Of a stretch of DNA of 64,000 nt, positions 39,365-54,357 are shown piece by piece. The stretch covers positions 62,001-126,000 of the forward strand of contig NZ_JAHYSS010000007.1 of the NCBI RefSeq assembly GCF_019802255.1. The letters run 5' to 3'. Every line of letters begins with the position of its first letter. The stretch's first letter is position 1. The position numbers were made by a program, and so were the translations under genes. This DNA is from Pedobacter polysacchareus (GTDB taxonomy: Bacteria > Bacteroidota > Bacteroidia > Sphingobacteriales > Sphingobacteriaceae). A model generated the notes under the pieces. It was not told the origin of the DNA. It searched no databases and saw only the letters and a list, made by a program, of their open reading frames with translations.

Positions 39365-39480
39365 AAAGAGTAACGATAGTCAGCTAGTAACTGACAAAAG
39401 GAGGATACCGAAAATCCCTAACAGAGTAGGTAAAATTGAAAGTTTTTATTGCTTTTTGATTTATAAAAGCATTACATATT
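39365..39480 (+). repeat. Leader repeat copy 2 (structured 5' UTR)
   Basis: Near-identical to copy 3. GTCAG/CTGAC hairpin (39379-39394 region), AAAGGAGGATACCGAAAATCC, AACAGAGTAGG, then TGCTTTT (39450-39456) paired with AAAAGCA (39465-39471), 9 nt before the ATG. Relative to copy 1 the terminal stem has changed T-A to C-G while keeping pairing. Confidence 0.65.
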
Positions 39481-39829: not shown

Positions 39830-39944
39830 AAGAGTAAAGATAGTCAGTTAGTAACTGGCAAAAGGAGGAGACCGAAAATCCTTAACAGAGTAGGTAAAAA
39901 TGAAAGTTTTTATTGCTTTTTGATTTATAAAAGCATTATTCATT
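39830..39944 (+). repeat. Leader repeat copy 3 (structured 5' UTR)
   Basis: Same blocks as copy 2. AAGGA and TCCTT flank the GGAGACCGAAAA segment with 5-bp pairing. The terminal hairpin TGCTTTT (39914-39920) with AAAAGCA (39929-39935) ends 9 nt before the ATG at 39945. The 39733-39829 gap before it contains TTTGTT...AACAAA (about 39747-39765) as a weak hairpin and nothing else. Confidence 0.65.
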
Positions 39945-50574: not shown

Positions 50575-51129
50575 ATGAAAAAAACAATACTTACCATACT
50601 TGTTTGCGCCGTATCTGCATTATCAGTAAACGCGCAAACAACTACAACAATGACAACCAACAAAAAAGACACCACTGCCTACCAAATGAAAAACGAATTC
50701 AGGATCAGCATCGGCCTCGACGAAGGAATACCGACCGCTTACGTATCCAAATTCTCCTCATTCGTTATGGGTGCTTCTTTACAAGGAGAATACATGGCTC
50801 TTAAAGAACTGGGTGTTACCCTAAGTGCCAACTACCTTTACTACCTGGGTAAAGACGGCGGAGACGGCCTATCCATGTTACCGGCAATGGCTGGTGTAAA
50901 CTATTACATCACGCCAAAAATTTTCCTTTCCGCTCAAGCAGGCGCAGCCTGGTACATCGGTAAAGATAGCGACAACAGCACTTATTTCAGCTATGCACAA
51001 GGGATTGGTTACCAACCTTCAAAGCGTATCAGCTTATTAGCGAAATATGAAGGAATCAATGTTGGTCCATCTAAGACCTACTCCTTTGCTGGACTACGTG
51101 TTGCCTACAAATTTTACAAAAGAAAATAA
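50575..51129 (+). CDS. Outer-membrane beta-barrel protein
   Basis: 184 residues, signal peptide (ILTILVCAVSALSVNAQ), then alternating strands (FRISIGLDEGIPTAYVSKF, LGVTLSANYLYYLG, YYITPKIFLSAQAGAAWYIG, ISLLAKYEGINVG) and the ending LRVAYKFYKRK. Eight-stranded OmpX/OmpW-like size. Its codons are more C-rich than those of the SusC/D genes just upstream, so it may have another origin or expression level. 33 nt after the NHL gene. Ends just before the structured RNA block. Confidence 0.75.
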   Translation: MKKTILTILVCAVSALSVNAQTTTTMTTNKKDTTAYQMKNEFRISIGLDEGIPTAYVSKFSSFVMGASLQGEYMALKELGVTLSANYLYYLGKDGGDGLSMLPAMAGVNYYITPKIFLSAQAGAAWYIGKDSDNSTYFSYAQGIGYQPSKRISLLAKYEGINVGPSKTYSFAGLRVAYKFYKRK

Positions 51130-51787
51130 GCAATATTGAAGTCTCTCCCGGAGCAAAGCCATTAAAGCCTAGCTTCGGTAATTTTGAAATACTGAATAAA
51201 AATGGTTCTGTATGTGGCGATATTTTTTCCTTAAGCCTTGCAAAAAATAAGCAAAATTGAACCGACGAACTTGTCACGTCTGCTTATAGTTGCAATTAAA
51301 AATCGCCGCTACATGAACTAATAATCTGAGGAAATGAAAAATGGTGTCTAAGTCAATCTCGTTTCCAGGAGTATATCCGGGACAAAGCTTTCCGCAAGGC
51401 AGAGTCCCGGTAACTCCAAAAAATTGGTTCTGTGCATGGCGATATTTTTATGTGCGGGTTTCTAACTATATAAACTGAATTGAACCGACGAAATAGTCAA
51501 GGTCGCTTATAGTTGCTATTAAAAATTCGCCACCACATGAACCATTAATGAATTAGAAAATGAACAATGAGTATTAAGTTTTCAAGTTCGCTTTCATAGA
51601 GGATAACCGGAACGAGGCTTCCCTCAGGGCCAAGTTCCGGTAACTCTAAAATAGTACCACAAACAGCATTAAAAAAAATCATCTTAGAGCAAACCCGGGG
51701 CGAGGTAATTCAGTAAGGGCCGAACCCCGGTAACTCTAAGTATTCAAATAATTATTTTTCTAACCACCTAAAGAAATTCATATAAAT
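51130..51787 (+). ncRNA. Block of repeated structured RNA elements (unidentified)
   Basis: 658 nt without a plausible gene. Four hairpins share the plan outer stem - A-rich bulge - 7-bp CCGG stem - loop - TAA bulge - outer stem. H1 51148-51154/51172-51178 (CCGGAGC/GCTTCGG). H2 51377-51383/51404-51410 (CCGGGAC/GTCCCGG) with outer GGAGT/ACTCC. H3 51606-51613/51634-51641 (ACCGGAAC/GTTCCGGT) with outer TAGAG/CTCTA. H4 51695-51700/51725-51730 (CCGGGG/CCCCGG) with outer TTAGAG/CTCTAA. Arms change in step. Between H1-H2 and H2-H3 lies a ~229-nt unit repeated twice, with GGTTCTG..GGCGAT and ATCGCC..GAAC ends that can pair. No known riboswitch class recognised. Confidence 0.65.
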
Positions 51788-53068
51788 ATGAATCAACATC
51801 CCCTAATTGTCAGCGCAACATTCAAATGCGAGGATAATATCATGAAAAGGATGTGGACTACTGGATATAAGGGTATTCAGCAGTTAGCTTCCAAAATCTG
51901 CTATGACGCAGCTTACTTTGAGCAACTTCCATACACTGGTGATACCAGAATACAGGCATTGCAAGCCTTGTACCTCTCCGGCGATGACAAGCTCATCAAA
52001 AAGGCCATTATGGATTTTTACAATTCAAAAACACCGGAATACATGACAAACACCCGCACATTGGGCGGGCGACTAAAAATTATCCCAACCTTTTCTCTCT
52101 ACTGGATTTGTATGATCTATGATTATTGGATGCACAGAAACGATGACGCATTTATCGAGATACTCCTCCCTTCTATCCATGGGATTTTAGATTGGTACGA
52201 AAGGCAACTCATGGGAGATCAGGAAATGTTAGGTGCCATAAAATGGTGGAATTTTGTAGACTGGGATAAATACAACGGCTGGGGAATTTCTCCTGATCCG
52301 GAAAATGGTAAATCTGCAATCATGTCTTTCCAATATGCTTATACTTTAAAACTCGCAGCCAAACTATTCAACGCCTATGGTGATCCTGATTGCGCTAAAA
52401 AGTATAATATCCTGGCGGACGAAATTAGCAGAGATACCCTCAGATTATGTTTTAATGAAGAGCAATTCTTAATTGCCGATAATCCTGACCAGAATTCCTT
52501 TAGTCAATACACCAATATATGGGCAATTTTAAGTGGTGCCGTAGAAGATAAAAAAGCAATTGAAATCATGTACCACCTGCTTTACAACCGTCAAATCATT
52601 CAGGTTTCCAATTTTTATAAGTTCTACCTCAACCAAGCTTTAAAAATAGTGAACATGGCAGATCAATATCAAAGACAACTTGCTTCATGGCAACGCTTGC
52701 GTAATATGGATTTCAAGCCCGACGTTGATCCTACTGAGCCCATACTGGCAGAACGTAACGGCTGGAGCAAATTTCCAAATTACGAATTCCTGGCTACCAT
52801 TTGCGGCATCACCTCGGCTGCACCTGGATTTAATAAAATAATGATTAAACCAGCTCTAGGTGATTTAACCAATATAGAGGCTAGTATGCCTCATCCAAAT
52901 GGCACAATTAATATCAGACTAATGAAAACTAGTAAAGAAAGTATCACTGCAGAAATAACCCTTCCCCCAGAAACAGAAGGCTTTTTTATTTGGAGCAAGA
53001 AAGTATATAACCTAAAAAGTGGATTTCAACGATTAGTATCTATAGTCTTTAACGGCTCCTTATCATGA
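51788..53068 (+). CDS. Alpha-L-rhamnosidase-like (GH78-type six-hairpin) protein lacking N-terminal domains
   Basis: 426 residues, no signal peptide. The catalytic (alpha/alpha)6 domain is recognisable: FKCEDNIMKRMWTTGYKGIQQL, then CYDAAYFEQLPYTGDTRIQALQALYLSGD (normally DCPYYEQLQYxGDTRIQ, general-acid Glu kept, DCP changed to DAA), IIPTFSLYWICMIYDYW, WWNFVDWDKYNGWG, and the C-terminal beta-sandwich with IEASMPHPNGTINIRLM. Family members are usually 700-900 residues, with beta-sandwiches before the catalytic part. Here the protein begins directly at that domain, and the DNA before it is the RNA repeat block. Overlaps the next gene by 4 nt. It may be a trimmed cytoplasmic enzyme or a decayed one. 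Confidence 0.72.
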   Translation: MNQHPLIVSATFKCEDNIMKRMWTTGYKGIQQLASKICYDAAYFEQLPYTGDTRIQALQALYLSGDDKLIKKAIMDFYNSKTPEYMTNTRTLGGRLKIIPTFSLYWICMIYDYWMHRNDDAFIEILLPSIHGILDWYERQLMGDQEMLGAIKWWNFVDWDKYNGWGISPDPENGKSAIMSFQYAYTLKLAAKLFNAYGDPDCAKKYNILADEISRDTLRLCFNEEQFLIADNPDQNSFSQYTNIWAILSGAVEDKKAIEIMYHLLYNRQIIQVSNFYKFYLNQALKIVNMADQYQRQLASWQRLRNMDFKPDVDPTEPILAERNGWSKFPNYEFLATICGITSAAPGFNKIMIKPALGDLTNIEASMPHPNGTINIRLMKTSKESITAEITLPPETEGFFIWSKKVYNLKSGFQRLVSIVFNGSLS

Positions 53069-54357
53069 TAAATCGGTATCGACCATTCGTCTCCTGCATC
53101 ATGATCGCAGGTAATAATCTACAAATGATTAGAAATAGCATCAGTTATTTTATAGATCAGAACTACGCTTATAAAGAATTAATTATTATTGATGATGGTG
53201 GTACCTGCTTAAAAAACAAAATACAAACTCATCCAAATGTGCTGTATTTCCAACTGGACAAAGCTGCTTCCAATGCATCAAAAAGGAATTTCGGCATTGA
53301 GCAGTCTCAGGGCGAAATCATCATGCATTGGGATGATCAGGACTGGTATGCCTCAGATTGGATTCGTCGCCAAAGTAATGCATTGCTGTTTAGCCAAATC
53401 CACATCAGTGGACTAAATATAGAGTCAAAGGAAAGGTCTCAAGAAAGTTATTACCAACGGTTATATGGTCAATCCAAAGTACAAATTTACTCCATGGTGA
53501 CCTCCACACTTTGCTACCTCCGATCTTTTTGGGATAAATATCCGATCAAAGATATATTAACCATGGAAGATGCCGACTTCGTCAGGAATTCAGGTGGCTT
53601 AGTTTATTGCCATACTTATTCCGCAGGATACCTGGAGTCATTTCATGGAGCTGATAAAAATAGCTCGCTTGAAAATCCGGAGGAGAGGATGAAAATGATC
53701 CACTCTAGAAAAGAAAACCCGCAGCCTTATCAAAAACCTGCGATTAAAGTCCCCAATGAATATTCCTGGGTAATCCCAGTTTCCTGTATTTTATGCAGCC
53801 ATAATGGAGAACAACACCTCCCGAATGCCATTGGAAACTTAATGCATCAGGACTATTTAGATGTGGAACTGCTCATTGTAGAAGCTGGCCCGGGTGTATG
53901 TTTAGAAATGATTCCGTACCACAGCAATATCAGCTACATTCCTTATGCACCTTCCGCCACTATCGGAGAAATGAAAAATATGGCTTGTGAAAAAGCGAAT
54001 GGGCAAATCATCATGCACTGGGATGAGCAAGATACCTATTCTTATGATTGGGTGACGCATCAGGTTACCGCATTGCTTAGTTTGGGAGCTGACGCTTCCG
54101 GACTAGACAAATTTATCGTTCATAAAAACAACACCGAAAAAACTTTAATGGTCAAAGATCCCATCCATACCAAAGGTTGGGTATATAGTCCTACGCTTGT
54201 TTATTGGAAAAAACTATGGAAAACGTTCAAATTTAGCGCTTTACAAATGGGTGAAGACGATGAATTCCTCCACAGATCAAAGGCTTATGTATCCCCACAT
54301 GATTACACCAATGGTTTTATTGCTAATATCACTGAAAGCAGCCAAAGTCATTTATAA
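53065..54357 (+). CDS. Tandem GT2-domain protein with altered metal-binding motifs
   Basis: 430 residues built of two copies of the type I GT2 domain (~1-215 and ~235-430). Domain 1 keeps IIIDDGG, but the WDDDDW motif is WDDQDW (Asp90-Asp93). Domain 2 has IVEAG in place of IIDDG and WDEQDTY (320-325) in place of WDDDDWY. Both keep the C-terminal ED (MEDADFVRNSGG; MGEDDEFLHRSKA). Domain 2 therefore probably binds no nucleotide sugar and may be structural or acceptor-binding. ATGA overlap with the rhamnosidase-like gene means translational coupling. Terminator at 54391. Confidence 0.8.
   Translation: MINRYRPFVSCIMIAGNNLQMIRNSISYFIDQNYAYKELIIIDDGGTCLKNKIQTHPNVLYFQLDKAASNASKRNFGIEQSQGEIIMHWDDQDWYASDWIRRQSNALLFSQIHISGLNIESKERSQESYYQRLYGQSKVQIYSMVTSTLCYLRSFWDKYPIKDILTMEDADFVRNSGGLVYCHTYSAGYLESFHGADKNSSLENPEERMKMIHSRKENPQPYQKPAIKVPNEYSWVIPVSCILCSHNGEQHLPNAIGNLMHQDYLDVELLIVEAGPGVCLEMIPYHSNISYIPYAPSATIGEMKNMACEKANGQIIMHWDEQDTYSYDWVTHQVTALLSLGADASGLDKFIVHKNNTEKTLMVKDPIHTKGWVYSPTLVYWKKLWKTFKFSALQMGEDDEFLHRSKAYVSPHDYTNGFIANITESSQSHL

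Follow-up and report, generated by a model that had tools for sequence, protein, structure and literature searches.

A single-locus structured element in a Pedobacter sugar-uptake gene cluster, probably born from a truncated GH78 gene

INTRODUCTION

What is the block of hairpins that separates an outer-membrane protein gene from a shortened rhamnosidase gene in Pedobacter polysacchareus, where did it come from, and what may it do? The block occupies positions 51130–51787 of the window, by which we mean the whole 64,000-nt stretch of DNA that was analysed. It sits inside a sugar-uptake gene cluster, with the OMP gene on its 5′ side and GH78C, a shortened GH78 rhamnosidase gene, on its 3′ side. 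The original prediction described four hairpins and a duplicated unit of about 229 nt, called them an unidentified structured RNA, and offered two readings, a tandem riboswitch array and a multicopy RNA element. Here we describe the architecture of the block, its distribution in Pedobacter, the evidence for helices kept through compensatory change, and its probable origin.

RESULTS

Hairpins and tandem long stems between two genes

The genes upstream of the OMP gene encode a TonB-dependent receptor (SusC-like), a SusD-like protein, a 205-aa unassigned protein, a thioredoxin-like protein and an NHL-repeat protein. The OMP gene itself (50575–51129, + strand) is an open reading frame for an outer-membrane beta-barrel protein of 184 aa, which scores 26.4 bits against PF13505, below the Pfam cut-off of 28.7, and it marks the upstream boundary of the block. 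Downstream, GH78C (51788–53068, + strand, 426 aa) has only the six-hairpin and C-terminal domains and lacks the N-terminal half and the signal-like start. Its end is overlapped by the open reading frame of a family 2 glycosyltransferase gene (GT2; 53065–54357, + strand, 430 aa). GH78C is under purifying selection, with dN/dS of 0.06–0.11 in the four of ten pairs that gave a computable dS, which was high (1.3–2.3).

All elements of the block are read on the + strand, in the order H1-A-H2-B-H3-H4. Hairpin H1 (51142–51187), identified from sequence and folding, is followed by copy A of a long stem, L (51204–51319), hairpin H2 (51366–51419), copy B of the long stem (51426–51543), and hairpins H3 (51596–51649) and H4 (51683–51740). 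An A+T-rich stretch of 47 nt (51741–51787) leads from the last helix to the GH78C start codon. The two copies of L were placed by folding, a helix alignment and the covariance model R2, and H2–H4 by repeat comparison and folding. Elsewhere in the window, two + strand copies of the DUF805b RNA motif (Rfam RF02914) lie at 39398–39432 and 39862–39896, about 460 nt apart.

Sequence and folding confirmed both the hairpins and the tandem units that had been predicted. The arms pair with the compensations described, namely CCGGAGC/GCTTCGG, which includes one G-U, CCGGGAC/GTCCCGG, CCGGAAC/GTTCCGG and CCGGGG/CCCCGG. H2–H4 have the outer stems and the common GGTAACTC ends that had been predicted; H1 has no such outer stem. 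The duplicated unit of about 229 nt appears as tandem copies spaced by 222–232 nt, and H3 is separated from H4 by a spacing of 90 nt.

The folding energy of the whole block corresponds to z = −6.1 against 30 dinucleotide shuffles, and to −6.4 in a repeat with 100 shuffles; background stretches ranged from −3.5 to +1.8 (21 stretches of 411 nt, 20 shuffles each). With 200 shuffles each, z was −5.4 for H2, −3.7 for H3, −2.4 for H4, −3.65 for unit A, −2.9 for unit B and −3.85 for the second hairpin-plus-long-stem (H-L) unit. The folding energies of H1 alone (z = −0.34) and of the first H-L unit (z = −1.48) were not significant against dinucleotide shuffles. Among six H copies, four from the window and two from strain PLR, two-sided change is seen in three of 15 pairs, where shuffles gave 1.5 on average; as 69 of 500 shuffles reached the same two-sided count, the covariation of the H hairpins alone is modest. 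One position shows A-U, G-C and G-U, the next G-C and A-U, and the hairpins hold six G-U cells against three A-C cells.

The block is confined to one locus

Rfam 15 has no family that reaches its curated threshold anywhere in the block (four matches at E ≤ 10 stay below threshold, none of them with more than 18 bits), and none reaches threshold in the related loci L021, L022 and L007. A scan of the block for tRNA and tmRNA found none, and searches of open-licence literature showed no description of the element. The designation as an unidentified structured RNA is upheld, and it gains further support from the six additional species described below.

At the DNA level, the window genome contains one full match and three chance-like ones (17–35 nt, E 0.5–1). 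A search of 98 other relatives, in which few candidates per genome were scored, returned only a 30-nt match in genome G083, which falls in an open frame of 264 codons; the short DNA matches in G083, G006 and G720 all lie within open frames. Plasmids and phages gave no match to the block at E ≤ 1e-5, and among 395 genomes of the class the exact loop pattern is confined to the locus under study.

Covariance models of the hairpin (R1) and of the long unit were searched against 145 genomes of the genus, with stricter filters under which some weak matches are lost. Convincing copies were found only in the window species and in strain PLR, at a single locus. Of the four off-locus matches of R1 (E 3e-4 to 0.04), two in G755 lie inside open frames of 1018 and 517 codons. 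The other two, weak matches in G719 (L058:1501–1542, E 7e-4) and G688 (L059:1501–1567, E 0.04), lie in no frame of at least 150 codons.

The many intergenic matches that had been anticipated thus did not appear, but further covariation did. The lack of convincing copies elsewhere speaks against a riboswitch array and against a dispersed repeat, and neither the tandem riboswitch array nor the multicopy element of the original prediction survives these searches. A dispersed repeat or MITE would have more than one copy, at sites unrelated to each other, and we saw no such set. A riboswitch class would recur before a number of genes or across many genomes, and apart from the weak extra matches we saw neither. 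By these searches the block is a single-locus structured element.

Synteny in seven Pedobacter species

Matches to the OMP gene at E ≤ 1e-25 occur in 11 of the 145 genus genomes, the window genome included. In seven of the 145, the OMP gene is followed by a gap of 363–658 nt and then by the shortened GH78 gene. These carriers are the window species, PLR (G697), KBW06 (G737), P. steynii DSM 19110 (G755), P. caeni DSM 16990 (G059), G712 and G756; the identity of the named records with these handles was checked by gap sequence agreement for three. The other four OMP carriers (G753, G722, G013 and G019) have neither such a gap nor an adjoining GH78 gene. There the OMP gene is followed by a gene of 280 or 281 aa, and in G013 and G019 a GH78 gene of 794 aa lies about 10 kb from the OMP gene. 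The shortened GH78 protein, which lacks both the signal-like start and the N-terminal domains, is conserved in the seven loci; perhaps cytoplasmic, and encoded next to a glycosyltransferase, it is a candidate for a changed function.

The first strong helix of the gap is a hairpin in all seven species. It lies 18–27 nt after the OMP stop in six species (18 nt to the main arm of H1 in the window) and 49 nt after it in PLR. At the other end, the 3′ arm of the basal helix ends 28–45 nt before GH78C in five species, and in the window H4 ends 48 nt before it. The PLR gap contains H1, one long stem, an H3-type hairpin and, as judged by eye, a degenerate second stem of 53 nt; its full stem ends 218 nt before GH78C, with H3 and the degenerate stem in between. 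The remaining five species carry one unit each, arms being counted once per gap. This suggests that the H-L-H-L-H-H array is a product of tandem copying within the lineage of the window species and PLR. Identity shifts smoothly across the gap borders and so offers no hint that the gap by itself was transferred recently. The folding energy of the whole block is lower on the + strand in five of the seven species and on the − strand in the window species and P. caeni.

A basal helix kept in all seven species

Sequences that correspond to the start (GGTTCTGTATGTGGCGAT) and the end (ATCGCCGCTACATGAACT) of the unit are present in all seven species (for example, GGTCCAGCATGCGGTGGA and TTCACCGCAGCATGGACC). 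They form a basal helix of 17 pairs, which we compared over eight units, window A and B plus the six other species. Of its 136 cells, 124 are paired. When the 3′ arms were dealt among the units, a mean of 113.8 cells paired, and a fraction of 0.0009 of 20,000 permutations reached the observed number. Eight of the 17 pairs changed on both sides; this count was reached by fractions of 0.096 of row permutations and 0.044 of column shuffles, so the significance of the helix lies in the fraction paired. The helix contains 11 G-U cells against one A-C cell, with G-U in six columns and partly by common descent, which suggests an RNA of the + strand. Model R2, built from window A, window B and PLR, found the G756 locus (L045:2200–2384, E 4.9e-5) with G756 itself absent from the model. 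The long stem is not continuous but contains bulges.

For this helix and for the P4–P7 domain described next, independent species show more compensatory change than chance would give. The alignments show that the basal helix has been kept through compensatory changes across seven species, and the conserved stretch of DNA probably makes a folded RNA.

A branched domain in four species

KBW06, P. steynii, G712 and P. caeni share a fuller architecture. P1 is the hairpin behind the OMP stop, P2 is a long-range helix, and P3 is the basal helix, which the consensus fold extends to about 42 pairs. The sequence GTCTATGAG lies in a loop of P4–P7 and is invariant in these four species and in G756. The latter was left out of the four-species alignment because it aligns poorly beyond the basal helix, and the P4-like arms that it has stand in a non-homologous place.

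In the four-species alignment, 94.8% of the cells of the 64 named pairs are paired. Both sides differ in eight of these pairs, compared with 2.0 on average after shuffling; none of 500 shuffles reached this count, and slid versions gave 1–3. All eight fall in P4–P7. P1, P2 and P3 show no two-sided change in this alignment, and three of the seven P2 pairs are broken in P. caeni. G712 served as the template for the structure and P. caeni alone supplies the two-sided changes, so the test is close to one independent comparison. RNAalifold found two-sided change in 11 of 111 predicted pairs, with a slightly unfavourable covariation term (+1.25 kcal/mol).

A model of P4–P7, searched against 301 genomes drawn from the family, matched only G712, an already known carrier; the three other carriers were evidently outside this draw, as they are missing from a same-sized draw. 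The model had no match to the window, PLR or G756.

Conservation without coding

The gaps of KBW06, P. steynii and G712 are 84–86% identical, and the 4-fold degenerate sites of OMP and GH78C are 46–59% identical among the same three species. Since gaps are often conserved at these loci, conservation alone is weak evidence: between KBW06 and P. steynii, two other gaps of the same loci are more conserved (94% and 89%) than the gap under study (85%), and two further ones are 60% and 58% identical. As an observation in its own right, the gap upstream of a gene for a cNMP-binding regulator (L041:9830–10093 and its equivalents in L042 and L043) is 86–94% identical in the three species, more than the block studied here. 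Between the window species and PLR, the whole gap is 57% identical and the 4-fold sites are 51–60% identical. Window A matches PLR at 38 of 46 stem positions and 33 of 64 loop positions; the difference is less clear for window B (34 of 46 and 42 of 67).

An open frame of 115–122 codons spans the gap in KBW06, P. steynii and G712. A third-position pattern in the GPACGGLFN stretch prompted a reading as protein, which is opposed by the codon-position count: the differences are spread evenly over positions 1/2/3 (19/17/17, 14/19/16 and 17/18/13), without the third-position excess of a protein-coding gene in the three species. By this count the block is non-coding.

The gap stands in place of a lost GH78 N-terminal half

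Full-length GH78 relatives are about 800 aa long, with GPARGDLFNW near residue 100 and, as judged by eye, a signal-like start. The short GH78 genes begin about 380 residues into these relatives. In one frame, the gap of G756 reads CKGPARGELFNWV, and this relic scores 23.1 bits against an N-terminal GH78 profile, a score reached by none of 13,800 shuffled segments. The corresponding scores were 6.6 bits in G712 (reached by 1 of 13,800) and 2.2 bits in P. steynii (15 of 13,800), and the profile found nothing above chance in the window, PLR, KBW06 and P. caeni. Just before the short gene of P. steynii, the frame reads NEPLILKHMNGMTIGYPL, which by eye resembles DDPLILNDIYGMKTGYPL of an intact gene. 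A relic of the lost GH78 N-terminal half is thus present in the gap, clear in one species and weak in two. From the relics and the likeness of the frame, it follows that the block occupies the place of the former 5′ half of the GH78 gene, which had been missed in the original prediction.

The 5′ arm of long stem A aligns with the relic of the GPARGDLF codons in other species; the link of the window and PLR to GH78 is made by the helix alignment and model R2. In nine intact GH78 genes, pairing of the GPARGD codons with the KF.PLW codons yields only −10.2 to −14.6 kcal/mol; the matching arms in five units, which were picked because they pair, give −22.9 to −33.5 kcal/mol. The nine are drawn from 11 full-length genes (without L011 and L012) and were also used for the relic scores above; the first relic comparison used eight of ten. 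This weak pairing in the intact genes suggests that the helix is younger than the GH78 truncation. A derivation of the 3′ arm from the KFRPLW codons is unsupported: in the consensus fold about 42 pairs join the 3′ side to the 5′ side, which makes inverted copying an equally likely source. Taken together, the element was probably born from dead coding DNA and then copied in tandem in the window lineage.

DISCUSSION

Our leading reading, which we hold tentatively and with less than even confidence, is that the block is a cis-acting, locus-specific RNA segment with an intercistronic processing or insulating role, born from a truncated GH78 gene. In a small Pedobacter lineage, it would part the SusC/SusD-thioredoxin-NHL-OMP genes from the GH78C-GT2 genes. 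A full-length GH78 gene would have lost its 5′ half, part of the remnant would have become a long helix, and a hairpin-plus-long-stem unit would later have been copied in tandem in the window lineage. Assuming a joint transcript across both gene groups, the hairpin by the OMP stop would shield the upstream message at its 3′ end, and the long duplex would be cut as a substrate of the RNase III type. The cut would set the upstream and downstream genes at different expression levels and leave the GH78C start region largely unfolded. RNase III accepts double strands of 11–20 bp, according to one report (PMC8687705), and a long helix between co-directional genes, as expected of an RNase III-processed intercistronic element, is present here, albeit bulged. 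Such spacing, together with the first hairpin and the predicted long duplex, would suit an intercistronic element that ends or protects the upstream message and is itself cut. The block may separate the expression of its flanking genes.

The origin can be read further. It is possible, though somewhat doubtful, that the locus records how a structured regulatory RNA arose de novo, from GH78 remnant to long helix to selection to at least two architectures. The long helix would have come from the GH78 remnant by inverted copying or mutation and then been held by selection. One architecture would be the single unit, with the branched P4–P7 in four species, and the other the tandem H-L-H-L-H-H array; both would keep the basal helix and the hairpin behind the OMP stop.

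An alternative function is that of a regulatory leader of GH78C-GT2, an RNA that folds round a ligand or protein and controls downstream transcription or translation. The block does lie directly 5′ of GH78C in all seven syntenic loci, and a branched P4–P7 domain in four species, with GTCTATGAG invariant in these and in G756, would suit a leader. Known riboswitch classes, however, recur before several genes, and the 145 genus genomes hold no convincing second locus; nor did the P4–P7 model reach beyond one known carrier (G712) among the 301 family genomes drawn, or match the window, PLR and G756. The 3′ end of the gap is unpaired in the consensus fold. A scan of window positions 50900–51900, which span the block, found no intrinsic terminator (a G+C-rich hairpin with a T run). 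In strain PLR, moreover, GH78C is present with no glycosyltransferase frame behind it. We consider such a leader unlikely.

The block could instead be an independent gene for a trans-acting sRNA, whose promoter would sit in the 3′-terminal part of the OMP gene and whose product would be cut from the long duplex. Just before the OMP stop, five of the seven species have TTTG-N19-TAnnTTTT, one mismatch from the Bacteroidetes promoter consensus. A precedent is CJnc190 of Campylobacter, which is processed from a long duplex that its own two ends form (PMC8687705). Yet the promoter-like sequence falls within codons for conserved OMP residues and can be explained by coding constraint; in the window and P. 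caeni it is missing at the one-mismatch limit. Sigma-70 promoter and terminator scans gave site counts about equal to those of shuffles. There is no clear + strand terminator in the scans of the window and L041, the only one in L041:6400–7100 being on the − strand inside the OMP gene, and the P4–P7 domain is not common to all species. An sRNA gene appears distinctly unlikely.

The structure might also be a non-functional remnant, decaying GH78 DNA whose inverted and tandem copies came about by replication slippage and template switching. Quasi-palindrome correction can make arms match, and the arms here could have been matched in this way. The GH78 relics in the gap, the variation of copy number and architecture, the tandem copies, and a divergence of the whole gap between the window and PLR that is near that of 4-fold sites all agree with such decay. 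Against it stand the G-U intermediates of the basal helix (11 G-U to one A-C), the two-sided changes in P4–P7, the 84–86% gap identity in three species, and the stems that are more conserved than the loops between window A and PLR, less clearly so for window B. We regard a mere remnant as quite improbable. Continued coding for a protein or small peptide is hardly credible, as the frame of 115–122 codons that is open across the gap in three species shows even differences over codon positions, is shortened in P. caeni and is not open across the gap in G756, PLR and the window.

If the intercistronic processing or insulating role is correct, the block may show how genes of one sugar-uptake cluster in Bacteroidota come to be expressed unequally. 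Structured bacterial RNAs usually come to light already complete and reveal little about where they came from. At this locus the recognisable parent half, the intact downstream half, the unaffected full-length relatives and what appear to be several RNA stages all occur in closely related species, two of the carriers being type strains, so that the origin and reshaping of such an RNA could be put to the test one step at a time.

Among known systems, RNase III-processed intercistronic long hairpins are processing signals in polycistronic messages. The block resembles them in having a long helix between co-directional genes and little structure before the downstream start; it differs in that it was probably born from a dismantled gene and is tandem in one lineage. 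With CJnc190 of Campylobacter jejuni, it shares a long intramolecular duplex formed from the two sides of the RNA; CJnc190 is a tested trans-acting sRNA with its own promoters (PMC8687705). Like candidate structured RNAs from comparative genomics, such as the 104 motifs of PMC2864571, it is intergenic and covarying, with no function assigned. It differs from them in being known from a single locus in seven Pedobacter species and in having no Rfam model at threshold. Compared with GH78 alpha-L-rhamnosidase genes, finally, the gap stands in the place of the N-terminal half, with the GPARGDLF relic clear in G756; the C-terminal half is intact downstream, and the gap itself is non-coding and structured.
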